Origin: Pseudovibrio exalbescens DSM 16456
Lineage (GTDB): Bacteria; Pseudomonadota; Alphaproteobacteria; Rhizobiales; Stappiaceae
Direction of reading: 5' to 3'
Assembly: GCF_000422785.1 (NCBI RefSeq)
Contig: NZ_AUGS01000014.1
Span: forward strand, 49,487 to 113,486
Length of the DNA stretch: 64,000 bases
Within the stretch, counting starts at the first letter, position 1. The number at the start of each line of letters is the position of its first letter. Under the pieces are notes generated by a model. It was not told where the DNA came from and did not search any database. It saw nothing but the letters and a program-made list of their open reading frames with translations. Position numbers and translations under genes: made by a program. Below, piece after piece: positions 39,399 through 64,000 of the stretch.

Positions 39399-39436
39399 CG
39401 TGCGTCCTTCTTGCTAATGAGCATTCATATTCGTAA

Positions 39437-39457: not shown

Positions 39458-39472
39458 AACAGAAGTGATCTC

Positions 39473-41532: not shown

Positions 41533-41556
41533 TGTTGCGAGTTTGACTTGCGCGGG

Positions 41557-41580
41557 TTGCACTTCGTTTGTGAATCCACC
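41557..41580. repeat. 24-bp direct repeat, left copy
   Basis: Identical to 42430-42453 in the same orientation. It interrupts the transposase frame directly after the codons for PQAPY. Confidence 0.85.
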
Positions 41581-42429: not shown

Positions 42430-42453
42430 TTGCACTTCGTTTGTGAATCCACC
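42430..42453. repeat. 24-bp direct repeat, right copy (probable IS terminus)
   Basis: Lies 39 bp upstream of the transposase start, where the left end of an IS30 element is expected. Identical to 41557-41580. The bases 42454-42542 to the right contain nothing recognised. Confidence 0.8.
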
Positions 42454-42542
42454 CCGCCTACAGGTTTATGAATGATAATACGCGTTATGGAATATAAAAA
42501 TACTCAGAAACGAAGTGCTATGAGCATTGATGTTTTGTTTTG

Positions 42543-44486
42543 CTAGGCTGAGATATAAGCAGTTTGCGGCTCGGGCACGAGGAGCCCGTGCTCCATGAGT
42601 TTCTTCAGTGCCAGTTCAATCTTTTCCCGAGCAGCAGGCGGGAATGATCCCGTCAAGTCTTTAAAGGAACTTGGTTCTTCCGCTTTGCTTAGTAATCCGC
42701 CCAAAACGTCACTCAGGTTTACGATGCGGCCATTGCCCGCATTGTACGCGAGCCATGCTTTCTTCGCTGCCACATTGGTTGGTTGCGGAGGTGGTGTGTT
42801 TGGCCGAGGTCGGAAGTCGCCATAAAGATCATCCAGTGCGCGGTAGTCAAATTGTGTTTGGACCAGCCGGACGCCGGGCGCTTTTGTGACTTTCAGATTG
42901 TCCCCGACCTCTTCCGTTAGGCCTGATTTCGTCTGTTCTGGTATCTCAACAGCGTTGGGCTTTCCTTCATCGGCATGAAGTGGCGATGGCGGCAAGTCGT
43001 TGTCACGGAGCTTGAGGCGAGGCGCCAACTCAGCTGCGGTTTGGAAAAAATTCTCACTGTTGAGCCCGGTTTCACTCCGAAAGTGAAGAGTTCTTGGAAG
43101 ATCTGCATTTCCGGGATCCATCAGCTCGACGATGCCAAAATCTTCAGGCGTTTGGTGTGCAGGAGAGCCAATTGGCACCCTGTATAACTTTAGACGCAAG
43201 ATTTGGTCTATCTCATCCCTATTCTTTTCAAGGAACGAGATAAACCTCTCGAAGCTCGAAGCCGTATCCCGTGGGAAGCCATAGACCAACGTTAGCGATA
43301 CATATAGACCAGCCTGCTTGGCAGCACGCCAAGAGGCCAGTAACCCTTCCTGTGCTGACGACTCATCGGCCCAACCCACAAACCCTTTGACCTCAAACAT
43401 CAATGAGCTCAAGCCCGCATGCGCCAAACGCTGCGCGACCTCCCGTGAAAGCGTCCGGCCGAAACCAAGGGTGGCCGACCATGCAGCTTCCTTACCGGCA
43501 AGAAGCCCCGCCAGATCCAACAGGGCATCGGGCGTGCTCGGTGCCACGAACAGCAGTCGCACTGATGTTTCATCCAGAGCGCCACTTGCCAACATGGAAT
43601 GAAACGCATGGTTCGACTCCGGAGAGGCCGTTACCCGCAGGACAGGCACCGCTGGCCCCTGAAGTGTAAAGGACTCGATTGCACTGACCCAATGGTGGGG
43701 GGACACACCGATGTCGGCATCCGCCAGCTTTGCCATGACGCTAGGTTTGTCTGGCAGGATTTCAACGGGAACGTCTGGCAGTGCGCCGCATTTCTTTGCT
43801 TTATTCAAGCTCGGCGAAACCGGCCCGCAGAAAACAAGGTTCGGCAGGTCTTCGCCATGCGTGCTGAACTCAGACAGCGCTTTTAGCAAGCTCATAGTGG
43901 GTAGGAGTTGTTGGTCCGCATCAAGCCAGACAAGCCAAGTCTCGGAGGCCTTCACCCCGACCCTTCCAATAAGGTCTCGCCAAAAATCGTGATAGGGAAA
44001 TGATTGATCCTTGCAAACGGCACGGAGATCCGAACTCACTTCTGTACTATGCACAGCGGTTAAGTCGTTGAGACGAAGCTGCCCGTAGTAAGGTGCAATG
44101 CCAACTTCGAGCCTTCGTTCTATGTCTTGGCGTAACACATCTTGCCTGCGCGGCGATGCATCCTGTTGAAGCAACTCACTCAACATATGCCCGGCATCTT
44201 CTTCGCTGAGGTCAGACTGTAAAAGCTTGCTGCGCAGCAGACGGTAATAGCCGTAGGCGTGATCGCCATTCAACAGCCCCTCATCCGGCGTTGAATCAGT
44301 CAGCTTTTTTTCCAGTAGTGCACAGCGGGCTGCAGCATGGGAACCTGAGAGAAAGCGTCGAAATGCCAATTGGTTGGCGTCAAGAAGGTGTCCACCCATA
44401 GCGCAAACACGCGCCGCCAGATCTATCAACTCAACATCAGGCGCGGTGGGATCCGTTTGCGGCGGGTAAATCAGGCGAAGTGACAT
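42543..44486 (-). CDS. B12-binding radical SAM-like protein lacking the cluster cysteines
   Basis: A 647-residue protein. The N-terminus (LIYPPQTDPTAPDVELIDLA to LLDAN) and a second lobe (WLVWLDADQQLLPTMSLLK, then NLVFCGPVSPS) resemble the cobalamin-binding part of B12-radical SAM enzymes. The segment ATLGFGRTLSREVAQRLAHA to LYVSLTLVYGFPRDTASSF and KLYRVPIGSP follows the radical SAM barrel. Where CxxxCxxC is expected, at about residues 284-298, the chain reads RVTASPESNHAFHS, without Cys. A C-terminal helical, winged-helix-like part (about 563-643) ends the chain. Start chosen at ATG 44486 after AGGAG. Last gene of the operon; probably a binding or scaffold protein. Confidence 0.65.
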   Translation of the reverse strand: MSLRLIYPPQTDPTAPDVELIDLAARVCAMGGHLLDANQLAFRRFLSGSHAAARCALLEKKLTDSTPDEGLLNGDHAYGYYRLLRSKLLQSDLSEEDAGHMLSELLQQDASPRRQDVLRQDIERRLEVGIAPYYGQLRLNDLTAVHSTEVSSDLRAVCKDQSFPYHDFWRDLIGRVGVKASETWLVWLDADQQLLPTMSLLKALSEFSTHGEDLPNLVFCGPVSPSLNKAKKCGALPDVPVEILPDKPSVMAKLADADIGVSPHHWVSAIESFTLQGPAVPVLRVTASPESNHAFHSMLASGALDETSVRLLFVAPSTPDALLDLAGLLAGKEAAWSATLGFGRTLSREVAQRLAHAGLSSLMFEVKGFVGWADESSAQEGLLASWRAAKQAGLYVSLTLVYGFPRDTASSFERFISFLEKNRDEIDQILRLKLYRVPIGSPAHQTPEDFGIVELMDPGNADLPRTLHFRSETGLNSENFFQTAAELAPRLKLRDNDLPPSPLHADEGKPNAVEIPEQTKSGLTEEVGDNLKVTKAPGVRLVQTQFDYRALDDLYGDFRPRPNTPPPQPTNVAAKKAWLAYNAGNGRIVNLSDVLGGLLSKAEEPSSFKDLTGSFPPAAREKIELALKKLMEHGLLVPEPQTAYISA

Positions 44487-44503
44487 GAACAATTTCTCCT
44501 AAA

Positions 44504-45670
44504 CTATGCGGCAACCGAAAAACGGTCGGGTCTGAACGCCTCAAAGTCTTTGTGAGCTGGTTCGCCCAAGGCAAGACCACAGACAACATCTGCGGTGATG
44601 GCGCTCAGCAAGACACCATGGCTGCCATGGCCGGTAGCCATGGTCAGCCCATCCAGCCCGGCAAAACGTCCAATCAACGGATAGCCGTCGGGTGTCATGG
44701 GGCGAATACCCACAAATTGATCAAGCACAGGCGCTTGCAGGAGTATCGGCACGACCCGCGCGATCTCGGCAAGACTGGAGAGCCCTCCAAGGGTATGATT
44801 TGGAGTGCTCTTGCGTGCTTCATGAGTAGCCCCAATCACAACGCGCCCACCAGCCTTCGGCACGATATAGCCGCGGCCCGTAGTAATCACGGGGTCGAAA
44901 CGGTGACGGGTAGGCAAACCAACGACGATCATTTGCCCACGAACCGGGCTTATGGGCACCTGTAGCCCCATGCCTTCCAGCAGGCTCCCGGTTTGGTAAC
45001 CAGTCGCGACAATTGTTTCGGCAGCTTCTATCTCAACGCCCGTAGAGAGACGCCCACCAATAACGCGCGAAGTTGTGTGCACCAATGCTTCAACGCGGGT
45101 TTGGGTCAGGAGTGTCAGCCCCAAGTCCAGCGCGCACTGTGCCAAGGCAGACACCAGTGCGGGTGGGTATGTGTGATGCGCATGAGCGCCAACAATGCCA
45201 CCTGCAATGCCCTCGGCAATGTAGGGGTGACGCGCCCGCAGTGCAGCTGCATCCAGTTGACGCTCATGGGGATCAGCAAGGCCGGGATCGGCGAGATATG
45301 CTGAGAGCAACTGAAGCTCTTTGGAGTCTTGTGCCACGCGCAAATGCGGGCTTTCGACCACACTATGTCGTGCGTGGTGCTGCTCGCCGCCGACCTCCGC
45401 CACCAGTTGGCGAAACCGCTGCAGACCGGCAATGGACAACCGTGAGTATGGTGTTCCTGCCTCCCCCTCAGCCACAGTCGTTAACAGACCTGCCCGGGCA
45501 GCGCTCGCCTCAAGTCCGAGGGCGTCTCGCGCCTCTACCAGCACCACCTTCTTCCCGGCCTGCAGTAAACGCAGGGCGATTACAACGCCAACCACGCCCC
45601 CGCCAATAATAAGGGCGTCAGTGGTGTTTGGTGATTGCGTAGGGGATGGATTTCGAAACCGCTCTTCCAT
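44504..45670 (-). CDS. DAO-type FAD-dependent amino acid/amine oxidoreductase
   Basis: A 388-residue flavoprotein of the D-amino acid oxidase/glycine oxidase family. The dinucleotide fold is ALIIGGGVVGVVIALRLLQA with GKKVVLVEA closing the Rossmann motif, and the C-terminal FAD contact is GIRPMTPDGYPLIGRFAGLD then ATGHGSHGVLLS. The family oxidises a primary or secondary amine next to a carboxylate, which suits a C-terminally added amino acid. It overlaps the preceding TPR gene (TAATG) and is 17 bp from the radical SAM-like gene. A tailoring role after peptide extension is inferred from context. Confidence 0.8.
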   Translation of the reverse strand: MEERFRNPSPTQSPNTTDALIIGGGVVGVVIALRLLQAGKKVVLVEARDALGLEASAARAGLLTTVAEGEAGTPYSRLSIAGLQRFRQLVAEVGGEQHHARHSVVESPHLRVAQDSKELQLLSAYLADPGLADPHERQLDAAALRARHPYIAEGIAGGIVGAHAHHTYPPALVSALAQCALDLGLTLLTQTRVEALVHTTSRVIGGRLSTGVEIEAAETIVATGYQTGSLLEGMGLQVPISPVRGQMIVVGLPTRHRFDPVITTGRGYIVPKAGGRVVIGATHEARKSTPNHTLGGLSSLAEIARVVPILLQAPVLDQFVGIRPMTPDGYPLIGRFAGLDGLTMATGHGSHGVLLSAITADVVCGLALGEPAHKDFEAFRPDRFSVAA

Positions 45671-47568
45671 TACGAAGCTGACTCCCAGTACAAGTTTGTG
45701 ATGTCAAACGGACGGTTCAGCTTGGTGCCGGGGCGCGGCAAGAATTGGAACTCGACTGGCGCAAAAGCATTGGCACCAGACTGATCTTCGCCTTCATGCC
45801 CCATACTGCCAGAAGAGATGGACTTGTAGAGTGGTTGCTTCACCGCGTTGGCGCCGGCGGTTTTGGAGGTTACGCACCATCGGCAGTACCACAACGCGAC
45901 CCAGTCAGCACTGATTGCATCATCCGCGCCCATCTCATCCTGAAGACGTACGCACGCTTCAAACCATCTTGCGGCTTCTTCAACCTGCCCCGCCCGATAG
46001 AGAACTCCGCCCAGATCGCGTGCAATCAACACCGCATAGAAGAGATCATGGGACTTGCGAGCTTCCGCATATGCTTTCATGAAATGGTCTGAGGCTTCAT
46101 CAAACCGATCAACCTTTGTGAGCAGTCCGCCCATCCGATAGTGATAGTGCTTCGCAAAGCTTCCGGCGGCAGACTTCAGCATGGGTTCAAACACAGACCA
46201 CCGCTCAATTGCTTTTGGTACCTGACGCGTGAACTCCTCCAAGTTCGTCATGTTAGACAACAGATTGATCTTGAGGTGTATTGAATCGGGCGTCCGTTTG
46301 CAGGCTTTGTTGTATTTGATGCCCATAAGGACCTGTTTGCGAGCATTCGCTACGTCGCGCAGCTCGACAAAAGACAGGGCCCGCAAGTTGTAGAGCCAGG
46401 CCAAGTCATTCAGCGCGGCATCATCGGTTCGATCCTTTAACATCGCTATGGCATGATCAAGGTGCTCGCGGCCTTGCAGTGGCTGACCTAGGCGTTTGAT
46501 CTTTAACAGTGCAAGGAAGAAATGGCTCATCGCCTTTTCATCAGCCCTATCAGCCAAAGACATGGCATATTGCAACGCCTCTGCCGCGCTTTCGAAACGG
46601 CAGGCAAACGCTTCAGCGAAAGCCAGATGCAGCACGAGCTCATGCTGTTGCTTGGGAGAAAACTCGACAAGGCGCCCACCTATTTGCCCCAGAATGGCCC
46701 TTGCCTGGGGGAAGTTCAGTGTGAACACTGCCTCTTCAATCGCCGAGATTGCATGAGCGGCAAGCGTTTCGGGTTGATCATTCTCCTCAATGGACGTGTT
46801 GAGGGCCTCAACCAGTGCTTTCTCGCGTGTGCCAAGGTTGGCAATGCCGTCTATCTCAACAATCTCAAGAGCTGAAACTGGTGATCTCGCGTCTTGATCC
46901 AACACAACATGCTTGAGATTTTGCATGACGCCTTCAAGCATTGCAGCGCGTCGTTCTTTTTGGCCGAGCCAAGGGGTCAGCCCCTCTACAACGGGTTCTT
47001 TGAACTCCCCACCACGGGAAAAGAGGATGAGCGGGCCACCTTCTGGCATGATGTCCGCGACGCGGCGCATGACCCTCACAGACTGCTCGTCTATTCCGTC
47101 AACATGCACTGCATGCACGATGCCGATCTCGCATTCGTCTGAGCATAGCCATTTGCGCAGCAACCGCCCCAGCGCCACGGTCACGCGCAAAATTTGTTCG
47201 GACTCCTTGTGCAAGCGTCGCCGGGATGGCGCGATTGCAATCTCGGTCAGCTCAGGCGCTGCTTTGAAGAACTCCTTACTTCTCAGCTCAGGGAAGAGCC
47301 AAGTCAGTTCGGCCGCAATGCTTTGCAAGAACTCTTTGTTCTCGGGATCTGCTTCCGCCCAGGACAAAGCCCGGGCGACCAAGGGGGCAATGCTGCCGAA
47401 TCCAAGTGTTGCGTCGCCAACCACAGGCCGAACGCGCAGCACCAAGGGCTTTGCGGTCGGAACCTGTTCAAGGAGCCTAGCCTCTGCTCGATCAGGCTCA
47501 AGGGCAACGGGCACAAAGTAAGCCTGAGGTGAGGTCAAGACTTGCGAGTTCTGGATTGATTGCAACAT
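45670..47568 (-). CDS. Pseudo-STAND ATPase/TPR protein 1
   Basis: A 632-residue protein. The first 250 or so residues resemble a MalT/LuxR-type STAND ATPase module but have no Walker A; a Walker-B-like stretch remains in AVHVDGIDEQSVRVMRRVAD. From about 270 to 590 come tetratricopeptide-like helices (LNDLAWLYNLRALSFVELRD, HLKINLLSNMTNLEEF, ARWFEACVRL). It ends in GTKLNRPFDITNLYWE, a TKLxRPF tail shared with the second TPR protein. Start taken at ATG 47568 after TTGGAG, in preference to the TTG at 47589 that overlaps the LanB-like gene. No helix-turn-helix is seen, so it may be a scaffold. Confidence 0.65.
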   Translation of the reverse strand: MLQSIQNSQVLTSPQAYFVPVALEPDRAEARLLEQVPTAKPLVLRVRPVVGDATLGFGSIAPLVARALSWAEADPENKEFLQSIAAELTWLFPELRSKEFFKAAPELTEIAIAPSRRRLHKESEQILRVTVALGRLLRKWLCSDECEIGIVHAVHVDGIDEQSVRVMRRVADIMPEGGPLILFSRGGEFKEPVVEGLTPWLGQKERRAAMLEGVMQNLKHVVLDQDARSPVSALEIVEIDGIANLGTREKALVEALNTSIEENDQPETLAAHAISAIEEAVFTLNFPQARAILGQIGGRLVEFSPKQQHELVLHLAFAEAFACRFESAAEALQYAMSLADRADEKAMSHFFLALLKIKRLGQPLQGREHLDHAIAMLKDRTDDAALNDLAWLYNLRALSFVELRDVANARKQVLMGIKYNKACKRTPDSIHLKINLLSNMTNLEEFTRQVPKAIERWSVFEPMLKSAAGSFAKHYHYRMGGLLTKVDRFDEASDHFMKAYAEARKSHDLFYAVLIARDLGGVLYRAGQVEEAARWFEACVRLQDEMGADDAISADWVALWYCRWCVTSKTAGANAVKQPLYKSISSGSMGHEGEDQSGANAFAPVEFQFLPRPGTKLNRPFDITNLYWESAS

Positions 47569-47585
47569 GCTTGGCTCCAATTTTG

Positions 47586-50066
47586 TCAAGAGGCTTCGTG
47601 CTCTGCAACAGCGGCATAGGTGCAGCGAATTTCGGCGGTATGGGGCTTGCCTGTTCCCACATCAAGCCAGAGTCCGTTGTCATCCGGCATCATCTCGGTG
47701 AGCACCGCGTGTCCTTCTGACGGCATTAGCGCCTCCAGATACTCCAGACTTAAAGGGCTGCGGAAATCGACCATGACCGGTTTGGGCTGACCGGGAATTT
47801 TCGCAAAGACTTGTTCTGGCAGCGCGGCTTTCAGCTGCGCGCGGCGCACACCTGTCATCAAAGCACTGGTATCGCCTCCACTGCCGCTATCCAGCCCCAA
47901 CTCAGTGCGATCAAGGATCCAGCGCGCCCGCTGCAGAACGATCTCATCCACTTCAATGCGAGGCGTAAACGCGCCGAACGAAATGGTGAAAGGTACCACG
48001 CGTGGCAGCGCAAAGATTTGATGCAATAAAGAAGACAACTCCCCATTAAAGAGGGCGAGCGGGACCTCACTCGCGTCGTGCATCAATGCAAGGCCGTTAT
48101 GCTGTACCCTCACCCAAACCTCGGAAAGGTCGATAGTTTCAACGCCATCTGTATCGGCTCCGGCAGATACAGGAATAGTCACTCCGGGATACCGAAATGG
48201 TGTGATTTTCAGCCGTGTAGATCCGGCAATGTTTGCGCAATTCGGGTCGCTTATTGGCGCCAGAAAAGCCCACATTTCCTCTTGCGGTTTGGGGTGGTGA
48301 GGATGCAGGCCGAGGGCCCATCCCCACACCATGGCTGTATCATGCACCTCCCCCAAAACCATGCGCGGAGCACCCGCTGGTGTTTTGGCGATCATTATGT
48401 CCGGTGAACAGATCAGAGGCGTTTGATCATGCTGCTGGTCAGCGAGCTGCTTAGCTGCCGCCACCAAACTGGATCCCGGCACTTTCAGCACTTCGATACC
48501 GTCTTCTTTGTATCGATCCCCAAGGCGCTCAAGGAGCTCCTCATTTGTGAGGTGTTGCGCAACAGCTGACTGAAAGGATGCGGCCTCACTCTCCCACTCT
48601 TTGAGCTTTTCGTGGCCCAGCACATCCCGCATGAATTTGGCAAAAGGAACCTGGGCCGTGCTTTCACCGTAGAGCGATTGATAAATCTGTTTGCCAAGCG
48701 TTTTCAAAAACGCTGAGCGCTGCTGGCCAGCCAAAGCCCAGATATCGAGTAAGGGAGCTAGGTTTGCCGTCATTTTTTCTGCAAACGCCGAGGCCATTTC
48801 GCCATGTTCAAGAGGCCCCACACCCTCTTCATAGAGCAGAAACCTATCTGCGTAGATGGAACCTTGATTTCGGCTCGACTCCTGCCCCGTGAACTTGGTG
48901 AACAGCTCGTTTGCTTCTTTCAAGAGAGCCTGTTTTTGTGGCGCATCGGCAAGGGGATAGAGTGCCTTTTTTCGGCAAAGCAAACCCAACAAGTCTCGCC
49001 AGATGCTGATCTGTTCATCGTCAATGTTAAGTGCGTCTAGCCAGTCTTTCAGCCATTGCAGAGCATCCGCTTCCTGCATTGGCACATGGATGCCGATCTC
49101 AACCAGACGTTTTTCCATAAAGGGCCGAAACACGTCCTCCAGAGCCTCTGGACAGAGGCCAGTTTCCTGTGCGAGGTCACGAAGTGAGCGGCCCTTGTTG
49201 AGACAACGCAGTATCTCACGTTGTTGCCTGGAGAGCTTTACGCTCCGGTTTGCTGCCGCTATCCAGAGCGTACCATCCTCTCGCACCTTGCATTCCGGCA
49301 CCAACACAGGCTTCAACTCAGTGCGTACCCTTGGATGGGTGGCAATCGTTGTCGCCAATGCCTTGACGGCCCAAAAAGCCATAAAGGCCTTGCGTTTCAC
49401 CCCTTCAGCGGAGAGTGAGTAGCGGATTGGCCAAGTCTCTGCCTCCTCGGGGCTGGCGTGATGAAGTACCTTGCCGTAGTTGATTGGCCCGAAAAAGCTG
49501 GTCGTCTCGTTTTTTGCGGTAAACCGTTGCAGGTACAATGCAAGTTGCCGCTCCTGTCGGCGGACAGCGCTGGTGCGTTCTGCCGCCGGTGCTGACAGGT
49601 TTTCAAGCCCGTTCTTGTACATGCTGGGACTTGAGAGGAACACAGCCTCCTGAAGCAGGGGATCGTCAAACGCGTTCGTCAAGTGCTGGCGTGCGGCCAG
49701 CAATTCCCGCCGCAATGTCTGCTCTACTTCCTGTTGAAGTGGGGGCAGCGCTGAGAGGGCTTCATTCCAAGCATCCATATCTGCATTGAGCGTAGGCTCG
49801 GCCGCTGCCAGCTCAAGTCGTTCTTGGGAGAAGGCGGCCTTGCCCGCAAGTGACTTGAACAAACTCTTTCGCTTGAGGCCGGGCAATTTGGGAAGCTCCA
49901 TCCACCTTGAAGCCATCTCTTGTGCAAGCTGCTCCAGGCGCTGTTCTTCCTTCAGCAATCGATCGACCATCTGTGCGGTCTGGCAGCAGTTCAGACCTTG
50001 AAGAAGTTCGAGCGGAAACCCGGCGGAGCGGATCAGGAAATGCGGTGCAAGCTTCCATTTTCTCAT
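47586..50066 (-). CDS. LanB-like tRNA-dependent enzyme 1 (probable PEARL)
   Basis: An 826-residue protein of the lantibiotic dehydratase N-terminal (glutamylation) domain family. It opens with HFLIRSAGFPLELLQGL, shares the LYLQRFTAKNETTSFFGPIN core with its three paralogues at about residues 185-205, and ends with FTPRIEVDEIVLQRARW, PVMVDFRSPLSLEYLEALM and LTEMMPDDNGLWLDVG. No SpaB-type elimination domain follows, so dehydration of Ser/Thr by this protein alone is unlikely. Start chosen at 50066 (MRKWKLAP), overlapping the previous stop as ATGA. Aminoacyl-tRNA-dependent extension of the scaffold peptide is inferred. Confidence 0.72.
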   Translation of the reverse strand: MRKWKLAPHFLIRSAGFPLELLQGLNCCQTAQMVDRLLKEEQRLEQLAQEMASRWMELPKLPGLKRKSLFKSLAGKAAFSQERLELAAAEPTLNADMDAWNEALSALPPLQQEVEQTLRRELLAARQHLTNAFDDPLLQEAVFLSSPSMYKNGLENLSAPAAERTSAVRRQERQLALYLQRFTAKNETTSFFGPINYGKVLHHASPEEAETWPIRYSLSAEGVKRKAFMAFWAVKALATTIATHPRVRTELKPVLVPECKVREDGTLWIAAANRSVKLSRQQREILRCLNKGRSLRDLAQETGLCPEALEDVFRPFMEKRLVEIGIHVPMQEADALQWLKDWLDALNIDDEQISIWRDLLGLLCRKKALYPLADAPQKQALLKEANELFTKFTGQESSRNQGSIYADRFLLYEEGVGPLEHGEMASAFAEKMTANLAPLLDIWALAGQQRSAFLKTLGKQIYQSLYGESTAQVPFAKFMRDVLGHEKLKEWESEAASFQSAVAQHLTNEELLERLGDRYKEDGIEVLKVPGSSLVAAAKQLADQQHDQTPLICSPDIMIAKTPAGAPRMVLGEVHDTAMVWGWALGLHPHHPKPQEEMWAFLAPISDPNCANIAGSTRLKITPFRYPGVTIPVSAGADTDGVETIDLSEVWVRVQHNGLALMHDASEVPLALFNGELSSLLHQIFALPRVVPFTISFGAFTPRIEVDEIVLQRARWILDRTELGLDSGSGGDTSALMTGVRRAQLKAALPEQVFAKIPGQPKPVMVDFRSPLSLEYLEALMPSEGHAVLTEMMPDDNGLWLDVGTGKPHTAEIRCTYAAVAEHEAS

Positions 50067-55080: not shown

Positions 55081-55084
55081 GACG

Positions 55085-56863
55085 TTAAGCAGCAATATGA
55101 TAAAGGTAGAAAGGGCGCCCCAGCTTGGTTTCCGGGGCACGGTGGAGCCATTCCTCGCAGTCGGAGATCGCGACCTCAGAGGGATCGTCACGCGATCTTT
55201 CCGCCATTTTGAGCGCTAAGGAGCGTGCGGCGGCCGATTTGTTCGCTGCTGCATGGTCGGCGCATCGTTTGGCTTCTGTCTCAGCCCGCTCAAACCAGAT
55301 TGCAGCAGCTTCGAACCGCCGCCTCTGGAACTCCGCCTTGCCGAGGGTTTGAGCAATGACAACTGAGTGGAAGGTGTCATGAATACTCTGCGCCTCGTGC
55401 CAGGATGCCAGGTACTGGTCCATTGCCATGTCGATTTGCCCAAGTCCGAACAACAGGCCAGCTTTCCGAAAGTGGTAGATCTTGGCAAACAACGCACGAG
55501 CTGGTCCCGTGTTAAAGGCTTCAAATCGTTCCCACACCGCCAGAGATTTACGGAGGTTGCCATCTGCCTCAAACAGGATGCTCATGTTGGAAATGAGGTT
55601 GATTTTGAGGTGAAGTGCATCACTGCCCTGTAGAGGCTTGATGGTTGCAATGGCTTCCCTGCAAATGGCGGCCGCTTCTTCGATCCGCTTGGTACGGAAC
55701 ATTACCAGCGCACGAACATTCAACAACCATCCAGTTTCGAGCAACGCCGCCGCCTCACCATGACCCTTTAAGGCCGCAAGACCTTCATCGATCAGGGCAA
55801 TCGTCCTGTCATATTCAGAGAGGCGTTTTGCCGAGAGCAACGAAGTGTACACACAAAAGCGGGCTTTCATGACCGGGTCTTTGGCCTGGCCCATGGCCCG
55901 GTGATAGATCTCTTGAGCAAATTGAAAGTTGCCAATGTAGGCATGCGCCAGACCCAAGAGCCGCGCCCTTGTCTCTGCCTCGAGCTCAAAGTCGGGATGT
56001 TCCAAGACAGAAAGCGCCAGATCATACTGACCAACTTGGATGGCCTCGAACAAACTGTCTTCGCTGAACCTATCAACATCAAGAAGGAGTGGGGCAAGCG
56101 GGCTGGGCCGGCTTTCTTCGGGCTCCATGGTGCCAAGTGGCGTTGGCTCATGGTGGCACAGGAATGACTTGAGGAACTTGCGTCGTTCGTCGGTTGACGC
56201 TGGCTCAGTTGTCAAGACCTCTTGTGTCCCCCAACGCGTCAGTTCGTTCAATGAGGAGGGACCGCCATAAACCACTATTATCTTCTGACTGGCGAACTGG
56301 AGCAACTGATTGAGTGACAGCAGGCTCACCCTGTCGATTTGCGCCACATCAGGGACAAAGATCCAAAGTCTCTGGCCCACAAAGGCAGCTGTCTTCTCCA
56401 AGCCTTCCACGACCAGTCGCGCAAGGCCGTTGGTTATGCGAAACGTGTATTCACTCTCACGGGAAAGGCGGCGTTCGGAAGCTGGAAGCGCTAGCGCGTC
56501 CATTGTGATGAACGTCAGGTCCTCCGGCGTCACATGCAAGTTCACAGCGGTAAGCTCTGCAGCTTTGCCCGATACAAGCCCTTCGCATTCCTTAGACAAG
56601 CTGGGCAGGAACCTGGCTACCAGTCCAGCAAGTCCTTGAAAGGGTGCAGTGTGATTTGGTGCAAAGCTCCAAACATCGACCAGTTCACCTTCGCGCTTCA
56701 ACTGCTCAATTGCTTCATCAAATGCCTCTGGTCCGCCACGTGCGTGCGGGTTGATGAACAGTTGTCGGTGCCCCGCTGCAACCGCAGAACTGAGAGTTTC
56801 AAACCACTTTCCACCTATGGTTGTGGTGGCGGGCAAATCTGTTTCCTGGAGTTCTGCGCTCAC
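55085..56863 (-). CDS. Pseudo-STAND ATPase/TPR protein 2
   Basis: A 592-residue relative of TPR protein 1. The N-terminal part keeps the shape of a STAND ATPase: an early strand QLFINPHARGGPEAFDEAI stands where the P-loop should be but lacks GKT/S, and LWIFVPDVAQIDRVSLLSLN matches the Walker-B plus sensor region, with one Asp retained. TPR-like helices cover about 260-555 (LLETGWLLNVRALVMFRTKR, LHLKINLISNMSILFEADG, AAIWFERAETEA). It ends ETKLGRPFYLYHIAA, matching the TKLxRPF tail. Located between LanB-like genes 4 and 3 in the operon; 12 bp from the former. Confidence 0.65.
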   Translation of the reverse strand: MSAELQETDLPATTTIGGKWFETLSSAVAAGHRQLFINPHARGGPEAFDEAIEQLKREGELVDVWSFAPNHTAPFQGLAGLVARFLPSLSKECEGLVSGKAAELTAVNLHVTPEDLTFITMDALALPASERRLSRESEYTFRITNGLARLVVEGLEKTAAFVGQRLWIFVPDVAQIDRVSLLSLNQLLQFASQKIIVVYGGPSSLNELTRWGTQEVLTTEPASTDERRKFLKSFLCHHEPTPLGTMEPEESRPSPLAPLLLDVDRFSEDSLFEAIQVGQYDLALSVLEHPDFELEAETRARLLGLAHAYIGNFQFAQEIYHRAMGQAKDPVMKARFCVYTSLLSAKRLSEYDRTIALIDEGLAALKGHGEAAALLETGWLLNVRALVMFRTKRIEEAAAICREAIATIKPLQGSDALHLKINLISNMSILFEADGNLRKSLAVWERFEAFNTGPARALFAKIYHFRKAGLLFGLGQIDMAMDQYLASWHEAQSIHDTFHSVVIAQTLGKAEFQRRRFEAAAIWFERAETEAKRCADHAAANKSAAARSLALKMAERSRDDPSEVAISDCEEWLHRAPETKLGRPFYLYHIAA

Positions 56864-56875
56864 GGTCTTCCTCCT

Positions 56876-59218
56876 CTAAGCGATTTCCGCGCCAGCAGCG
56901 AGCTTGGCGCCTGCAATTGCTCTGGTCGTCTCTGGTACTTTCGCTACTGGACCGGGGTAAATCGCATGAATTCGCAGCTCACACGGGTAGCGCCCACCTC
57001 CCTGCGTCAACCAAAGGCTCTCCGCATCAGGGTACATTTCCTCAAAACGTACTGCGGTGCTGCGTTTGAGCAGATTGGCGAGCATCACCAAACAATGCTC
57101 AACGGCGAAATCCACGTAGATGGGTTTGCGTTCTGCGTCTGCCTTTGCAAAAACCCGTTCGGGCAGTGCATATGTTTGCCGGAAGGTTTGCGCTGCCTTG
57201 AGCAAAGCAACGCCTGACATCTCAGTAAGGTCGTTGAGAGCTTCCGCAGCAAAGGACCAACGTTGCCGTTGTATCACGCAGTCGCCGAAGTAAATGCGTG
57301 GCGTGTGCTGTCCAAGATCGATCTCTGGCGCGGCCAGCCAAGGCAGGGCTAGCGCGGCGAACGGTGGGTATTTTTGATGGTCTGACAACGTCAGGTAGAG
57401 CGGTATTGGCTTGCCGCCAACCATCAACCGCACCACACCATCATCATCAAGGCCGACTTCAGCGCGCGCAAGAGATGTCGCCCTGACACCGTAAGCCTTG
57501 TCGAAACGGCCAATAGGATCTGAATAAACAAGGCGCTCACCGGGGAAACTATAGAAACCTTTATTGCGCCGCCGTACTTGAAGGGCGGTAAGTTCGCTCA
57601 GACCCGTTTCATTCAGCCTGTTGTTGAGCTGGCATGAGTACTCATCCCGGCTTGGCAAAAAGGTGGTCAGCCACGAGTTCAGCAATAGATGATGGTTCAT
57701 TTTGCCGACAAAGAGTTCATAGTTCCCAGAAGCCAAGGCGTCCATGTCCTTAGCTCCGATGAAGACATCAAGTAGCGAGTAGCGCGGCCCTTCAATCTCC
57801 TTCAGCATCAACTGTTCAGGGGCAATGCGCACGCACCCGTCCGCATCTGCAGATTGATTAGAGACCAGCTCTTCCAGACGGCGTTGCGCCTCGTTTGTGC
57901 CCACCGCGGGCATTGTTGGCACCTCACCCTTCATAGCATCGATAAACCGAGGGGCTGGCACTGGTGTGCCATTCGGCGAAAGACGCATGAAGACGGCGCG
58001 GGCAGAGCGTTGCAAGGCTTCCCATTGCGCCTTCCCTATGGCCGCCGAGAGTTGCAAAGAGGGCTCCGCCCGGTAAACAAGATCCTCATGAAGACGGCGG
58101 CCAAAGGTCAGCTCACGGATGCTGCCACGTGCTTCTTCATAGTAGATGGTGCGGTCCTCATACATCGCGCCGGTTCCACGCCATGCTGACAAGCCAGTCT
58201 GCGTTTCAAACTGCAAGGCAGCCTCTTCGAGCAGCTTTTGCCGCTCCTCGAAGGACGCTGCGCTCATCTGTGCGCGCCACTGTTGCCACGTTGTCAGTCG
58301 CTCAACCCACCTGTCGCGTGCAGACCCTTCTGGCAAATCACTGACCATGGCAAGCAACTCTTCCAAGGCGTCAAGGCGCGAGGAGCTAACAATAGGGCCG
58401 TGCCGCAAAATGCTGGAATCAACCAACTTGTCGATAAGAATCTGAGAGCGCGGGCCATGCGTTTTCTGGATTTGGCTGCGGGTCTGGCCGTTTTCAATGG
58501 CCTCCATTACTGCAACCGCCCAAGGTGGCAACGGGCGATGGGATTGATCCGGCATAGTCAACCCATCCGCATTCAGGATGACCATGGGATTCAGGTGCAA
58601 TGGCAACGCGCTCCTGAACTCAGGTTCTTCAGCGATTTTTTCGGCAAGCGCCGACAGGGCCCAAAACGTTAAAAAGACGCGGCGTTCAGTAACAAGATCC
58701 TCGCCCATGGCGAGCCCCGGCCCCTCTTTCCGATCTACGGTGGTTTCAAGCCTTGCCCAGCCATCCCAACCGTCATCTACCCGGCCATAGTTCAGTGTAC
58801 CAAAAAAGCTTGTGGTCTCATTCTTTGCTGCGAAGCGCTGGAGGTAGGCAAACACGGTACGTAACGCCCGCCGCGCATCAGAGTTGAAATGGGATTTCGC
58901 AAGCGCTCGCTCAACTTTCGGTACCGCGTTGCGATAAACATCCGGGCTTGAGACAAACAGCGCTTGGCGAATATCCTGCCTTTGCAAAAGACGCCCAATG
59001 CTGTCCAAAATGCGTTGATTTTCTTCGCTATAAACCTGTTGCGTCTTCGCGTTTTCAGCACCCATTTCCAGCAGGATTGCCAAGGTGTCCTGCATGCGAA
59101 AAAGTTCAAGCACCTCCATCGGAAAGCCCGGAGAACGTAGAACAAATTCAGGGCCAAATTGCCATCTAGCTCGGACATGGGCTTTTTGTTGGTGAGGAGC
59201 GGATTGCTGATCAAGCAT
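56876..59218 (-). CDS. LanB-like tRNA-dependent enzyme 4 (probable PEARL)
   Basis: A 780-residue paralogue, the shortest of four. It opens with EFVLRSPGFPMEVLELFRMQ, has AYLQRFAAKNETTSFFGTLN as core motif (Thr-Leu replaces Pro-Ile) and ends HTPRIYFGDCVIQRQRW, PIYVDFAVEHCLVMLANLL and FEEMYPDAESLWLTQGGG. The N-terminal helical part is about 60 residues shorter than in the others. Start taken at ATG 59218, overlapping the peptidase stop by eight bases. It is the first LanB-like gene in the transcript and could carry out the first extension (inference). Confidence 0.72.
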   Translation of the reverse strand: MLDQQSAPHQQKAHVRARWQFGPEFVLRSPGFPMEVLELFRMQDTLAILLEMGAENAKTQQVYSEENQRILDSIGRLLQRQDIRQALFVSSPDVYRNAVPKVERALAKSHFNSDARRALRTVFAYLQRFAAKNETTSFFGTLNYGRVDDGWDGWARLETTVDRKEGPGLAMGEDLVTERRVFLTFWALSALAEKIAEEPEFRSALPLHLNPMVILNADGLTMPDQSHRPLPPWAVAVMEAIENGQTRSQIQKTHGPRSQILIDKLVDSSILRHGPIVSSSRLDALEELLAMVSDLPEGSARDRWVERLTTWQQWRAQMSAASFEERQKLLEEAALQFETQTGLSAWRGTGAMYEDRTIYYEEARGSIRELTFGRRLHEDLVYRAEPSLQLSAAIGKAQWEALQRSARAVFMRLSPNGTPVPAPRFIDAMKGEVPTMPAVGTNEAQRRLEELVSNQSADADGCVRIAPEQLMLKEIEGPRYSLLDVFIGAKDMDALASGNYELFVGKMNHHLLLNSWLTTFLPSRDEYSCQLNNRLNETGLSELTALQVRRRNKGFYSFPGERLVYSDPIGRFDKAYGVRATSLARAEVGLDDDGVVRLMVGGKPIPLYLTLSDHQKYPPFAALALPWLAAPEIDLGQHTPRIYFGDCVIQRQRWSFAAEALNDLTEMSGVALLKAAQTFRQTYALPERVFAKADAERKPIYVDFAVEHCLVMLANLLKRSTAVRFEEMYPDAESLWLTQGGGRYPCELRIHAIYPGPVAKVPETTRAIAGAKLAAGAEIA

Positions 59219-61082
59219 ATGATGCAGCCTCCCCGGGAACATTCAGGACAAGTGTCATCAGTTGGTTCAATCGGCCCCGCATCACGCTCAGGCACGTTTC
59301 CCACACGGCCTCCTCTTCCAGATCAGCACCAAAAGTTGTTTTGAAAGCGGTATTGATGTCGTTTTGAGCCATGCTGCGCAAAAGACTGGTGTAGGCGCCA
59401 GCAAACTGAGGTCCTAAAGCCTGTCTTTGCGCCTCAAGAAAGTGTGCAAGAAAAAAGCCGGCAATGTAGGGCAAGCCATGAAACTGAGAGGCAATGAATA
59501 CCGGTTTGCGATACCAAGCACTCACATCTGGGCTAACTTTGTTCTCTCCGAACCAATGCAACCAGACTTTCGTGAAACGCTGATCCAGTTCTTCTGGTGT
59601 ATGAGGGAAAGGCGCATCGGTCAGTTGCCTCTCAAAAGTAAAGTTGGCAGGCAGCATCAGCGCAAAGGCGATAAAGGCCTGCGCTTCCATCCACGCGTAG
59701 CGGCGGAACTGGGCACATGGGTGCTGAGAACTGTTCTCCCCGCTGCGCTGCCATTGGCTTCGCAGCAGAAGTTCGGCAAACGATGCCACTGTTTCTGCGG
59801 AGGCCGTTGGCACATAGTGCCGCTCCATGGGCAGATCTTTTATGCACCAGAAATGATGTGCGTGCGAGGTTTCATGGGCGATGCGGATCGCGTTCAGAGC
59901 ATGGCCATCATAGCTCACGAGCACGAGTGGCACGCCGCGTCGGGCAATCGAGGTTTGAAAGTCCGCTGTTCTGCGTCCGGCCTGATGAGGACTGGCATCG
60001 AGCCAGCCCTCTTGCATCATCAGACGGAAAAACCCAGCCATTTCCGGATCAACCGCATTGAACGCCCGCTCGGTATCCCGCAGCGCCTCGTTTAGTGGAA
60101 CCGGACCAACCCAGTTGCTGGAAGCATCCAGATCCCAAGGTGCAAGCCTCTCGTAGCCTGCCATGTGCGCTTGAGCCGTCAGCGCTGCTTGAGCGTCAAC
60201 TCGAAGGGCGTTTGCAGCTTCAAGACAACGCTCAACTGCGCCGCGCGAGAGGGACGTTTCAGCAAGGGCCTCCTGCCAGCGATCTTCGCCCTTGATCTCA
60301 GCCGCTCGACATCGCCATGCAATGCGGCCGGTCAAAGCGTGTGCTGCCATGGTTCGATGCGGCTGCCAAGCTGTTTCCACGCTTGTGAAGATCCTTTCTC
60401 GAGTGCTTCGAACTGGGTGCGCCAACAAGCGGGTCGCCTCCACCACAGAGACTTGGTTATCGGCTATCCCGTCCTCAGGCAGATGGAAATAAAGCTGCGC
60501 TCGAGTGTCACGGTAGGCCTGCCACCACTGTCTGTAGCCGGGTCCACCAAGCCGGTCTGTCTGTTCATTGCGCTTGCTTTTTTCCTCGTCCCTTTCCCAA
60601 CTCTGCCAGCGCTTCAAAACCTCTTCAGGCGCGCCTTCCGGGAATAAATCTGAGGCGTTTCGACCTGCTTTGAGCATCACCCCTACAAACTCCGTAGGGG
60701 CACTTTTATGCGCAGTAGCAATGCGCCGAATACGTTCCGCATTCTTCGTCAAGTGTTTGGTAGTTTCGCCAAGAGAGCGCTTGCACTCCAAAAACACATA
60801 GAGTTCCTGAATGCTCTCTCGCTGTTCTGTCCAGTCCGCATCAAGTCGCTCCAGCGCGGTGGCAGACAGCGCCCCAGCCGGCACTTGCTTGGCGAAACGA
60901 GCAAACTCTTCTCGGCTCCGCTTTACTCCCGCCCAGACGTTACTCAGGGCAGCTGCGAACTCTGCAGAAGCCGGATCCCACAGGGGATCTGTCATTTTCC
61001 ACCGTACTTGCTCGCGAGCACTCTCGTCACCCGAACTGAACGGCTCCGGCGCCTGTGTTGCGAGGGAGGCTGTCATCGTCAT
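59211..61082 (-). CDS. M3-family (oligoendopeptidase F-like) metallopeptidase
   Basis: A 623-residue protein with the zinc motif of thimet-type peptidases: IRIAHETSHAHHFWC contains HExxH (HETSH), and the third ligand Glu is expected in ASAETVASFAELLL 25 or so residues on. The C-terminal Tyr/His region (SQFHGLPYIAGFFLAHFLEA) is also family-like. In this operon it is the obvious candidate for releasing the finished product from the scaffold peptide or degrading the spent scaffold. It overlaps the MFS gene by four bases. The N-terminal half is divergent from housekeeping PepF. Confidence 0.8.
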   Translation of the reverse strand: MTMTASLATQAPEPFSSGDESAREQVRWKMTDPLWDPASAEFAAALSNVWAGVKRSREEFARFAKQVPAGALSATALERLDADWTEQRESIQELYVFLECKRSLGETTKHLTKNAERIRRIATAHKSAPTEFVGVMLKAGRNASDLFPEGAPEEVLKRWQSWERDEEKSKRNEQTDRLGGPGYRQWWQAYRDTRAQLYFHLPEDGIADNQVSVVEATRLLAHPVRSTRERIFTSVETAWQPHRTMAAHALTGRIAWRCRAAEIKGEDRWQEALAETSLSRGAVERCLEAANALRVDAQAALTAQAHMAGYERLAPWDLDASSNWVGPVPLNEALRDTERAFNAVDPEMAGFFRLMMQEGWLDASPHQAGRRTADFQTSIARRGVPLVLVSYDGHALNAIRIAHETSHAHHFWCIKDLPMERHYVPTASAETVASFAELLLRSQWQRSGENSSQHPCAQFRRYAWMEAQAFIAFALMLPANFTFERQLTDAPFPHTPEELDQRFTKVWLHWFGENKVSPDVSAWYRKPVFIASQFHGLPYIAGFFLAHFLEAQRQALGPQFAGAYTSLLRSMAQNDINTAFKTTFGADLEEEAVWETCLSVMRGRLNQLMTLVLNVPGEAASYA

Positions 61083-62326
61083 GACTTGCCCCCTTCAAGG
61101 GCCTGCGGTTCGTCTGAAGCGCGCGAACGGCTTGCAATCAGGCCGAAGATTGCCATGGCCACAGTCCCGGCAGCGCACATGATGAATGCAGCTGGGGCGG
61201 TAGACTGGGAGATCAACGCACCAATCATGAGCGCGCTCAAGCTCTCGCCGATAAAAGCGATAGTTGACCACATGCTGAACACCTTGCCCATTCGGTTGCC
61301 GGGCGTTTTTGTTTGTATCAGCACGACAAGCGGAATATCCACGACCGCTTCTACAGCGCCTACCAGCAGGGCGAAGCTCAGTGCTATCCAGATGTTTTCA
61401 GAGAGTCCAAGCGCGGCAAAAAAGACGCCCCACAGGGCCCATCCGCCGAAAATGTAGAGCGATGGATTTTTGATTTGCAAACGGCCGATCACGAGGGACG
61501 CAAAAACGTAGCCGATGGTGATCATGGCTAGAACCCAACCAAAGCCACTGGCTCCTGCGCCCCAGTTCTGGTCTGCCACGTGCGGCAGCGCGACACGCTC
61601 CAGGCCAGTGACAAACATCAGGCCGACACCGAACAAGATGATGCCCCAAAACAGATCTCTATGACCCTGCAGAAAGCGCAGCGTTCCACCAAGAGCACCG
61701 AGCAGGTTATCCTCGGACTCCTCACCTTCGGCATGGCCGACATTGCGCAGCGGCACTACAAAACCAATGGAAACAAAAAAGGTTACAATAGCAATGGTGT
61801 AGAGCTGATCTGCGCCCCAAAGCTCGATGAGAATGCCGCCAAGTGCCAGACCAATCAGGCGCGCAGCCCGAAAGCCGCCCTCCACAAGGGACACCCCAAG
61901 GGCCCGGGTGTCATCATCCAAGACACCTGCAACCGCTGCATTCAACGACGGATGAAAGAAACAGCGGGCGCTTGTCAAGACAAATGCAATCAATGCCAAG
62001 TGCCAGACCGTCAACATGCCTGCCAGCGCCAACGCAGGCACAACCGCCACGGCAACCGCGCGGATCAGATCACAAAACAGCATTAATGACTTGCGGTTCC
62101 ATTTGTCCGCGTAAACGCCGCCGATCAATCCGAAGAGTAGGTAAGGGGCGCTGGCGCAAAACACCACGAGACCCGCCAGCCACGCGCTTTCTGTCATCTC
62201 GTAGGCGAGCCAGTAAAACGCGACCTGGTAGATGGATTCGCCAAAGGTGGAGATGGTTTGTCCCAGCCACAGCAAACGATAATCGTGGTTTCGGGCAAGT
62301 CGCAGCCAGTCGGGCGCCGTTTTCAT
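61079..62326 (-). CDS. MFS exporter
   Basis: A 415-residue membrane protein with about 12 helices. N-terminal NHDYRLLWLGQTISTFGESI and YQVAFYWLAYEMTESAWLAG, then GGVYADKWNRKSLMLFCDLI carry the loop 2-3 signature of drug/siderophore exporters such as the EntS and macrolide-efflux groups. Placement between the flavin reductase and peptidase genes suggests it exports the product. The C-terminal SRSRASDEPQALEGGKS tail is cytoplasmic. Ends in a four-base overlap with the peptidase start. Confidence 0.88.
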   Translation of the reverse strand: MKTAPDWLRLARNHDYRLLWLGQTISTFGESIYQVAFYWLAYEMTESAWLAGLVVFCASAPYLLFGLIGGVYADKWNRKSLMLFCDLIRAVAVAVVPALALAGMLTVWHLALIAFVLTSARCFFHPSLNAAVAGVLDDDTRALGVSLVEGGFRAARLIGLALGGILIELWGADQLYTIAIVTFFVSIGFVVPLRNVGHAEGEESEDNLLGALGGTLRFLQGHRDLFWGIILFGVGLMFVTGLERVALPHVADQNWGAGASGFGWVLAMITIGYVFASLVIGRLQIKNPSLYIFGGWALWGVFFAALGLSENIWIALSFALLVGAVEAVVDIPLVVLIQTKTPGNRMGKVFSMWSTIAFIGESLSALMIGALISQSTAPAAFIMCAAGTVAMAIFGLIASRSRASDEPQALEGGKS

Positions 62327-62365
62327 GCGTACCTCAAAATCAAATGGACAAGCGGAACAGCAGCG

Positions 62366-62983
62366 CTATGCCGCTTCCTTGTGTTTTCTCTGAATGGCCC
62401 CACCCTTGCGCGCTTCTGAAAGCGCCCGGGTATAACCAATGAGAAGATCACAGGAAGCATCCAAACGCGCCCAGATGGCGGGAAACTTCTGCGACGGCTC
62501 GGTGAAAGCCCGTTCCGTTGCGGCGTTGACGTCGCTCACGCGCCGCACCACCACGTCATCAGGGATCCAGCAGACCCGATTTCCCCTGAAGCTGGAGACG
62601 CGCAATTCCGCGATGGGCCAGACGCCGCCCATGCCATCCGAAACTCCCACCGGCAAGGCTGGTTTGTCACAAAACGGCCCCTCTCCAGACAGCATGAACA
62701 GTGTTTTCAAACCAGGTGGTACCATGCCGTGGAATTCGGGTGTGATGACCACAAAGCCGTCCGCATCAGAAAGGTCGCCCAGAGTGCTGTACCAAGGTGA
62801 CCCCGGCGTTGGGGGCGACTTGAAAACATCGTCCGTCAGCTCTGGCAGGATTGGCTCTGCAAGGTCTAACACAGCGCAAGTCACTTCTTTACGCCGCTTG
62901 GATAGCCGTTTTGCAATTAAATGGGCGAGCTTACCCGACTGGGAGCCCATGCGTGGGCTACCAGAGATAATCATCAACTTCAT
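62366..62983 (-). CDS. NADPH-dependent FMN reductase-like flavoprotein
   Basis: A 205-residue flavodoxin-fold protein. The FMN phosphate-binding loop is SGSPRMGSQSGKLAHLIAKR, and the second flavin contact is DADGFVVITPEFHGMVPPGL. Start chosen at ATG 62983 (MKLMIISGS) after GGAG. It could deliver reduced flavin to a partner, or reduce an intermediate directly. Second gene of the operon, 64 bp after the scaffold peptide and 39 bp before the exporter. The C-terminal tail (GAIQRKHKEAA) is charged. Confidence 0.82.
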   Translation of the reverse strand: MKLMIISGSPRMGSQSGKLAHLIAKRLSKRRKEVTCAVLDLAEPILPELTDDVFKSPPTPGSPWYSTLGDLSDADGFVVITPEFHGMVPPGLKTLFMLSGEGPFCDKPALPVGVSDGMGGVWPIAELRVSSFRGNRVCWIPDDVVVRRVSDVNAATERAFTEPSQKFPAIWARLDASCDLLIGYTRALSEARKGGAIQRKHKEAA

Positions 62984-63047
62984 GAGATTGCTCCACACTA
63001 TGTTTTGAAGCCAGGAACTGCCCAGCTTTCAATCTGCTCGAAACCGG

Positions 63048-63242
63048 CTAAAGAGCGAGGGGAGCGATCTTGTCTTCAACATCTTCAAGATCGAAATCCA
63101 GATCATCTAGGTCGTCCAGATCATCGTGGTTTTCTTCATGTTGAACAGTCGCATCGACAGATTTTACTTCATCGGTCGGGTTAGATACGTCTTCCCGGAC
63201 TTCTTCTGTAGTATTTGAAGTGCTATTTTCAATGTTTGACAT
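63048..63242 (-). CDS. Acidic scaffold (precursor) peptide of the LanB-like system
   Basis: A 64-residue peptide and the first gene of the 12-gene operon. ATG at 63242 follows AAGGAGT with six-base spacing, the best ribosome binding site in the cluster. Residues 1-32 hold all the Ser and Thr; residues 35-64 are strongly acidic with LDDLDDLDFDLEDVEDKI and end IAPLAL. The FDLED segment resembles the FNLD/FDLD leader motif that LanB-type proteins bind. There is no Cys anywhere and no Ser, Thr or Cys after residue 32, hence no core for lanthionine or azole formation. Ending at a bare leader fits a PEARL scaffold extended after translation. Confidence 0.75.
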   Translation of the reverse strand: MSNIENSTSNTTEEVREDVSNPTDEVKSVDATVQHEENHDDLDDLDDLDFDLEDVEDKIAPLAL

Positions 63243-63264
63243 AACACACTCCTTGATAGCCAAG

Positions 63265-63290
63265 AGTCCATCGATTGTGTGAGATGGACT
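63265..63290 (-). promoter_or_regulatory. Hairpin in the 5' leader of the scaffold-peptide operon
   Basis: AGTCCATC and GATGGACT form a perfect 8-bp stem with a ten-base loop, 23 bp before the start codon and 11 bp before the ribosome binding site. No T run follows. It could stabilise the leader RNA or act as an operator. Confidence 0.5.
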
Positions 63291-63627
63291 TCCTCTACTA
63301 GATCGAGTGTCGGGATATCAGCAATATGAATGTTTATCAACTTTCTACAATAGTATTATATCGTCAATTGTTCTAAATTTATTTAAAATAACTCAGCGTA
63401 AGGCAATTGATTTTCTATTGGATATAAAATGATAAATATCTCAGCCGCAGTAAGATTTAACATTTTTCAGATTATCGATATCAATAATATATTTGATGAT
63501 TAATCATGCTAACTCAATTAAAGGTAGAGTATTAGAGTCAAAAAACGCACCTTTTATTTCACTTATGCAAATTAATCGATTAATCGAGAATCAACTTGAG
63601 CAAATTGGGTCCCTTCGCACGACGCGT
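63291..63627. promoter_or_regulatory. AT-rich promoter region of the biosynthetic operon
   Basis: No gene is seen. A minus-strand TATAAT lies at 63355-63360, about 113 bp before the scaffold start, without a strong -35. Palindromes ATGATTAATCAT (63496-63507) and TTAATCGATTAA (63572-63583) are operator candidates. The base composition is far richer in A and T than the genes beside it. Confidence 0.4.
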
Positions 63628-63690
63628 CTAGGTGGATGCCCGGCGCCACATAAAAACTGCGGATGAGAGAATAATTGCTGCGCCTGCTAG
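63628..63690 (-). pseudogene. C-terminal fragment of a DMT/EamA-like transporter
   Basis: The minus strand reads LAGAAIILSSAVFMWRRAST and then TAG. A glycine-alanine helix followed by WRR and a short tail resembles the last helix of EamA-type permeases. The frame is cut at 63690 by sequence that looks like an IS end. With 20 residues only, the family call is tentative. Confidence 0.35.
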
Positions 63691-64000
63691 GGCCTGTTGA
63701 CAAAGTGGGTTCCCAAATCAGCTGAACTGTGATTCATATGTGGACGCCCCTTATGGCAAGAGCTGTTTTTGTCTTGTTGCGGTGATCGGTTGCTTTCATA
63801 TGTCCGGCCTGTTTTTGCGGCGTGCGTTTGCCGCTGGCCCTGATGGAAATCCGCCGGTGAGGTCCCTGATCAAGATGACGCGCTTTAATGGCGCATTGAA
63901 TCAGACGGGTTTGCCTCTCCATTGGCTCGATCGTTACGCATCATCGACTGCTATTGCCAATTCGGTTCGGGCTGCGTGCGGTTAGGCAGGCTGCCCATAG
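63691..64000. mobile_element. Probable IS end running off the window
   Basis: The sequence changes abruptly at GGCCTGTTGACAAAGTGGG, which resembles the terminus of an insertion sequence. The open frames that follow on both strands (63740-63985 plus, 63734-63922 minus) show no transposase motif I recognise. The element continues beyond the window, so family and completeness cannot be given. Confidence 0.4.

Follow-up and report, generated by a model that had tools for sequence, protein, structure and literature searches.

The last 21 kb of a 64 000-nucleotide stretch of Pseudovibrio exalbescens DSM 16456 (RefSeq assembly GCF_000422785.1, contig NZ_AUGS01000014.1; the whole stretch is referred to below as the window) hold a block of twelve genes. 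This block very probably directs the assembly, on the C-terminus of a carrier peptide, of a pyrroloiminoquinone-type aminoquinone derived from tryptophan; it has likely moved as a unit between species. The assignment was made because the block combines an AmmA/BhaA-like scaffold peptide, TPR proteins of the BhaC1 type, homologues of the glycine oxidase and quinone reductase of the bha and amm clusters and a protein with an Amm10-like fold. Four homologues of peptide aminoacyl-tRNA ligases (PEARLs) accompany them. A preceding sequence-only reading had described a coupled twelve-gene operon that looked like a new multi-PEARL pathway; the operon was found as described, but the pathway looks like a pearlin cluster of the known bha/amm type.

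The block consists of twelve consecutive open reading frames on the minus strand (63242–42543). Adjacent pairs overlap or are at most about 20 bases apart, with the exception of gaps of 73 and 39 bases flanking the second gene. Better start codons were located inside some long frames (e.g. 47586–50066 and 52615–55080). The contig ends at the last base of the window, and the genome comprises 4.16 Mb. In 5′ to 3′ order the genes are as follows.

63048–63242, minus strand: scaffold (carrier) peptide of 64 residues, AmmA/BhaA-like, ending in KIAPLAL (C-terminal match to BhaA and AmmA).
62366–62974, minus strand: NADPH-dependent FMN reductase, putatively a BhaH/Amm17-like quinone reductase (PF03358, 68.2 bits).
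61079–62326, minus strand: MFS exporter (PF07690, 110.5 bits; PF05977, 105.6 bits).
59211–61082, minus strand: M3-family metallopeptidase with an HETSH motif, predicted releasing protease (TIGR02290, 201 bits, cut-off of 561.7 not reached).
56876–59242, minus strand: PB1, PEARL homologue with Lys and Asn at the positions of BhaB7 Glu575 and His577 (PF04738, 58.6 bits; residue table; tree).
55085–56863, minus strand: TPR1, BhaC1/C2-type TPR protein (24–26% identity to Halalkalibacterium and Paenibacillus homologues; Lys391, Asn472 and Lys654 kept).
52615–55080, minus strand: PB2, PEARL homologue (PF04738, 59 bits; tree).
50063–52618, minus strand: PB3, PEARL homologue (PF04738, 64 bits; catalytic residues).
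47586–50066, minus strand: PB4, PEARL homologue (PF04738, 67.8 bits; catalytic residues).
45670–47568, minus strand: TPR2, predicted FMN-dependent Trp trihydroxylase, nearer to BhaC1 than TPR1 is (29% identity over 593 residues to P0028 of Halalkalibacterium halodurans, E = 1.5e-81; the same three residues kept; AlphaFold model).
44504–45670, minus strand: ThiO-like FAD oxidase, putatively BhaG/Amm14-like (PF01266, 199 bits; TIGR02352, 198 bits, cut-off of 250.8 not reached).
42543–44486, minus strand: Amm10-like protein of the cobalamin/radical-SAM (S-adenosylmethionine) fold without the Cys motif (fold comparison).

The scaffold peptide is leader-only, as had been read from the letters; it contains no Cys and nothing beyond PLAL. 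Its last 22 residues are identical to published BhaA at 17 positions and to AmmA at 16, and the best of 100 000 shuffles matched BhaA at 10 of the 22. The stretch corresponding to the 20-residue substrate peptide of BhaC1 is identical at 14 of 18 positions and lies at the same distance from the end. The peptide thus carries the APLAL(A) end of the AmmA/BhaA type by which pyrroloiminoquinone-type pearlin clusters are recognized. As described in PMC9850906, the encoded sequence of BhaA stops at Leu, with Ala and Trp supplied by PEARLs, and in the AmmA construct a PLALA end precedes the Trp.

The four LanB-like proteins, PB1–PB4, match Lant_dehydr_N (PF04738) at 58.6–67.8 bits (cut-off 28), and none matches the elimination domain Lant_dehydr_C (PF14028), in agreement with their earlier description as lacking it. 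Each ends no more than about 31 residues past the last catalytic Arg, which leaves no space for such a domain. PF14028 likewise gave no match in the genome itself, in P. exalbescens M63 or on the Kitasatospora plasmid discussed below, searches in which no positive control gave a signal; two LanB-like Nonomuraea proteins scanned as candidate controls were also without a match. Residues of BhaB7 were located in the alignment by their spacing (from Asp558, steps of 17, 2, 138, 8, 50 and 2 were exact and one was 41 instead of 40). The equivalents of Asp558, Arg715, Glu813, Arg815 and Arg208 are kept in all 32 aligned PEARL-like proteins, PB1–PB4 included; 31 of them have His577, and 29 are acidic at the Glu575 position. 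Asp558 and Arg815 of BhaB7 correspond to Asp542 and Arg803 of TglB, which are reported to be present in PEARLs and missing from split LanB dehydratases; both are found in all four proteins. The residues support PEARL rather than dehydratase chemistry for PB1–PB4, as the sequence-only reading had proposed.

At Glu575, which belongs to the second Mg site, the other three sequences have a basic residue: Lys in PB1, and Arg in both P0013 and the Kitasatospora protein that pairs with PB1 in the tree. PB1 alone also lacks His577, with Asn in its place; PB2–PB4 keep both Glu575 and His577. PB1 need not be dead, since the TglB equivalent of Glu575 is reported as not essential and glutathione synthase is reported to have Asn at the PEARL His position. 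The Lys and Asn are identical in M63, and PB1 looks like a PEARL subtype because its Kitasatospora partner is also basic at the Glu position. In the tree, from which five of the 32 aligned rows (P0013, P0016, P0020, P0021 and P0022) were excluded for length or low coverage and which carries a long-branch warning among the Kitasatospora rows, PB1 pairs with L026:26229 (support 100/98) and PB2 with L026:19974 (97/95); neither PB3 nor PB4 pairs with a Kitasatospora protein. As the final Ala is part of the encoded scaffold in Kitasatospora, PB1 and PB2 are candidates for the Trp and ring-nitrogen steps, and attachment of Ala and the closing addition may fall to PB3 and PB4. Protein search also located another copy of PB4 in P. 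exalbescens (P0004, 94% identical), on a contig of different length.

TPR1 and TPR2 share about 27% identity and are both homologous to P0028, which has Lys391, Asn472 and Lys654 at exactly the positions numbered for BhaC1. The three residues are retained in all eight aligned TPR rows, TPR1 and TPR2 among them. BhaC1 is described in PMC9850906 as a flavoenzyme that trihydroxylates the PEARL-added Trp, and these are the residues predicted to make its contacts with the C-terminal Trp and the carboxylate. Both proteins were accordingly classed by sequence as probable BhaC1/AmmC1-type enzymes with predicted FMN binding. The AlphaFold model of TPR2 (predicted local distance difference test, pLDDT, 76.9) combines an N-terminal alpha/beta part with a TPR superhelix, and its matches include a STAND-TPR protein, in keeping with the architecture noted earlier.

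The radical-SAM-like protein lacks the CxxxCxxC motif. In a first fold search its model was ranked closest to HydE, followed by MgmA and TsrM, with AprD4 absent among the 50 best rows; in a second fold alignment the three best were MgmA, TsrM and AprD4, the top rows being tied. TsrM and AprD4 are the structures named for the fold of Amm10, a Cys-less, radical-SAM-like protein of the ammosamide cluster with a C-terminal RRE; the TPR proteins described for PEARL pathways are the flavoenzymes BhaC1 and AmmC1 as well as AmmC2 (PMC12424672, PMC11117183 and PMC9850906, for both groups). The fold alignments end by residue 507, and the likeness to Amm10 was drawn from its reported fold and the absence of Cys. 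A search of PDB sequences with the profile of this protein gave no matches. It is likely to be a non-catalytic peptide-binding partner. Both kinds of protein had been taken to be foreign to PEARL pathways; that view did not hold, and the idea of novel PEARL chemistry based on them was dropped, both being known from amm and bha.

The peptidase, exporter and two flavoproteins named earlier were recovered as an oligoendopeptidase-like M3 protein, an MFS protein, an FMN reductase and a DAO-family FAD oxidase. For the homologues of the glycine oxidase and the FMN quinone reductase, the correspondence to BhaG and BhaH was drawn at the level of protein family. TldD/E matches lie on another contig and none within the block, which in this respect differs from amm; the M3 peptidase is in the operon.

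The amm cluster of Streptomyces sp. CNR-698 shares with the block a carrier ending in IAPLAL(A), four PEARLs, two TPR proteins (AmmC1 and AmmC2), a glycine oxidase (Amm14), a quinone reductase (Amm17), the Cys-less Amm10 and a transporter. In contrast to the Pseudovibrio peptide, that of amm encodes the Ala, and amm uses TldD/E (Amm12/13) and an M20 dipeptidase (Amm19); it also has a halogenase, a methyltransferase and an amidotransferase, which the twelve-gene set with its M3 peptidase does not. The bha cluster of Bacillus (Halalkalibacterium) halodurans C-125, the final product of which is not known, has a peptide ending in APLAL to which Ala is added by a PEARL, and counterparts in BhaC1, BhaG and BhaH; it is reported to have a methyltransferase and larger numbers of PEARLs and of TPR proteins than the Pseudovibrio block, and its host is a Bacillus. 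An independent case was located on a plasmid of Kitasatospora sp. NBC_00039 (L026), where an unannotated 40-residue scaffold peptide (L026:17729–17851) ending in KIAPLALA is followed downstream by a TPR gene and by seven genes for PEARL-like proteins, including those grouping with PB1 and PB2; an FMN reductase and a DAO oxidase are also present. This actinobacterial cluster differs in its seven PEARL homologues, its TldD/E and the lack of a clear Amm10-like protein. The tmo pathway of Tistrella mobilis (3-thiahomoleucine) is likewise a pearlin pathway of a marine alphaproteobacterium, but is described in PMC9303977 as Cys-based, with one PEARL, an active B12 radical-SAM enzyme and different tailoring enzymes. 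The Pseudovibrio cluster departs from the known systems in its alphaproteobacterial host, the M3 peptidase in the operon in place of TldD/E and the Lys/Asn pair of PB1.

From these comparisons we infer the following route. A PEARL would add Ala to the PLAL end, since the residue is encoded in AmmA but not in this peptide, which like BhaA terminates at Leu; another would add Trp, whose indole would be trihydroxylated by TPR2 to a hydroxyquinone. A third PEARL would move nitrogen from Gly-tRNA to the ring, with glyoxylate removed by the ThiO-like oxidase, and the FMN reductase would set the quinone/hydroquinone state. The fourth may introduce another nitrogen or cap the C-terminus with a residue. 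Cleavage by the M3 peptidase would then free the modified residue, and the MFS protein would export the product. With no M20 dipeptidase in the set and TldD/E encoded elsewhere in the genome, release by the M3 protein is a guess. The route would agree with the earlier proposal of an exported small molecule derived from amino acids; the accompanying idea of up to four successive additions was oversimple, since two of the four PEARLs of amm place nitrogen on the indole ring.

Several observations weigh against the Trp-based assignment. The Lys and Asn of PB1 replace the Glu/His pair in the ATP/Mg site, so that PB1 is possibly inactive or different. The PEARLs are only about 24–30% identical to one another and to those of Kitasatospora over long alignments, so any assignment of an added amino acid to one of them is tentative; three of the four scanned unnamed Kitasatospora PEARL-like proteins are without a Pfam match and were assigned by BLAST alone. 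The ThiO (TIGR02352) and M3 (TIGR02290) matches lie below the curated cut-offs, and an M20 dipeptidase, halogenase, amidotransferase and methyltransferase are absent from the twelve genes. The model of the radical-SAM-like protein is of low confidence (pLDDT 57.6), and comparison with the Kitasatospora cluster gave it no convincing sequence match (hhalign E = 0.015, probability 2.9%). Finally, the contig stops just upstream of the block, where this genome may hold additional genes, and the conserved block in M63 ends at the same point.

Of the alternatives, a different PEARL pathway that uses an amm/bha carrier and helpers to build on a residue other than Trp is unlikely. According to PMC9303977 PEARL specificity is not yet predictable from sequence, and the remote PEARL identities and partnerless PB3 and PB4 would suit it, but the two BhaC1-type proteins with all three Trp/carboxylate residues, the match to the BhaC1 substrate stretch and the glycine-oxidase and quinone-reductase homologues argue against it. 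More improbable still is that the cluster has decayed or is silent and yields no product. The altered PB1 and the insertion sequence (IS) remnants, an IS30-like relic adjoining the block here and IS genes on one side in M63, could be read in this way; however, the frames are open in both copies and the proteins nearly identical, unlike drifting pseudogenes, and the basic residue in the Kitasatospora partner makes PB1 look like a subtype. Split or short lanthipeptide dehydratases acting on Ser/Thr share the Pfam family PF04738, but with the PEARL-type Asp and Arg retained, no elimination domain in PB1–PB4 or, in the uncontrolled genome search, elsewhere, and a Cys-free scaffold stopping at PLAL, this identity was dropped as having practically no likelihood.

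The block occurs a second time in P. exalbescens M63, where the same genes are collinear and the flanks unrelated. The scaffold peptides differ at two positions, and the other proteins are 95–100% identical (exporter 100%; PB2 compared over 617 of its residues, because the boundary between two analysed sequence pieces falls within its gene). Two further features were delimited by this comparison.

42485–63642, minus strand: block conserved in M63, about 97% DNA identity (blastn extents).
42490–42545, minus strand: hairpin and U-run 3′ of the last gene, possible terminator (8-bp stem also in M63; folding z-scores −2.16 and −1.06).

The conserved segment stops abruptly at both ends. For the hut operon, which lies about 1 kb from the block, identity to M63 is 74% in DNA and 77–86% in protein, and another 12 kb of window sequence gave short matches only (64–80%). 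Lateral transfer of the block as a unit between species is therefore likely, given the contrast between about 97 and 74% DNA identity and the unrelated flanks, and it may have been recent. In G+C content the block (0.55) hardly differs from the DNA around it in the window (0.54), so composition does not point to a distant donor. The M63 copy has an IS transposase pair on its upstream side and, downstream, a pair of McrBC restriction genes (L021:3029–6357), the latter suggesting a variable island; the gene beside hutC in M63 has no match in the window. The histidine-utilization genes (36688–41532) adjoin the block in the window and lie about 44 kb from it in M63. The IS30-like transposase relic (41092–42390) is situated between these genes and the block. 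In a repeat search comparing each end region of the block against itself, an identical 24-nucleotide sequence was found at 41557–41580 and 42430–42453, 873 nucleotides apart. The stem of the possible terminator is retained in M63 despite base changes, one pair being changed on both sides, and its folding energies are weakly unusual. Upstream of the scaffold gene, 63263–63642 has 33% G+C, compared with 55% for the genes, and is inside the conserved block; an Rfam search of 62900–64000 gave no matches.

Searches with the TPR profile listed two of 61 genomes, DSM 16456 itself and M63, both of the same genus. Among 385 genomes ten were listed and among 398 twenty, with only DSM 16456 full-length and the others partial (at most 24.5 and 27.2 bits, respectively). 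On these counts the cluster looks rare, although the genomes sampled at class and phylum level are subsets of larger groups. Protein searches, limited to the approximately 8000 candidates with the most words in common, gave at least 3, at least 19 and at least 7 relatives. By title and start of abstract, no description of the cluster was found in the literature on Pseudovibrio, pyrroloiminoquinones or pearlins in Alphaproteobacteria or proteobacteria, a scope that does not extend to Jordan and Moore (2016), who may list homologous clusters, or Daniels (2022); a first description is not claimed.

The origin of sponge pyrroloiminoquinones is described as debated in PMC9787360, and for the spirochete symbionts named as likely producers no such gene cluster is reported in PMC11656744. 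Pseudovibrio, a genus known mainly from marine invertebrates, holds a candidate cassette that is complete and compact. As the strains are sequenced and named, the product of the cassette, and whether host-associated relatives carry it, are accessible to direct testing; the P. exalbescens strains given in PMC12080928 are from a lagoon, seawater and sediment, none of them from sponges. The block also provides a further system for the unsolved roles of Amm10 and the second TPR protein, and a test case for M3 release of a pearlin. More tentatively, it may represent a minimal, self-contained and laterally mobile pyrroloiminoquinone pathway of marine Alphaproteobacteria, in which an M3 peptidase replaces TldD/E and a PB1 subtype with a basic residue in the second metal site puts nitrogen on the ring. 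As the genes include no halogenase, methyltransferase or amidotransferase, its product would be the bare core, a possible source of sponge-type alkaloids such as the makaluvamines.

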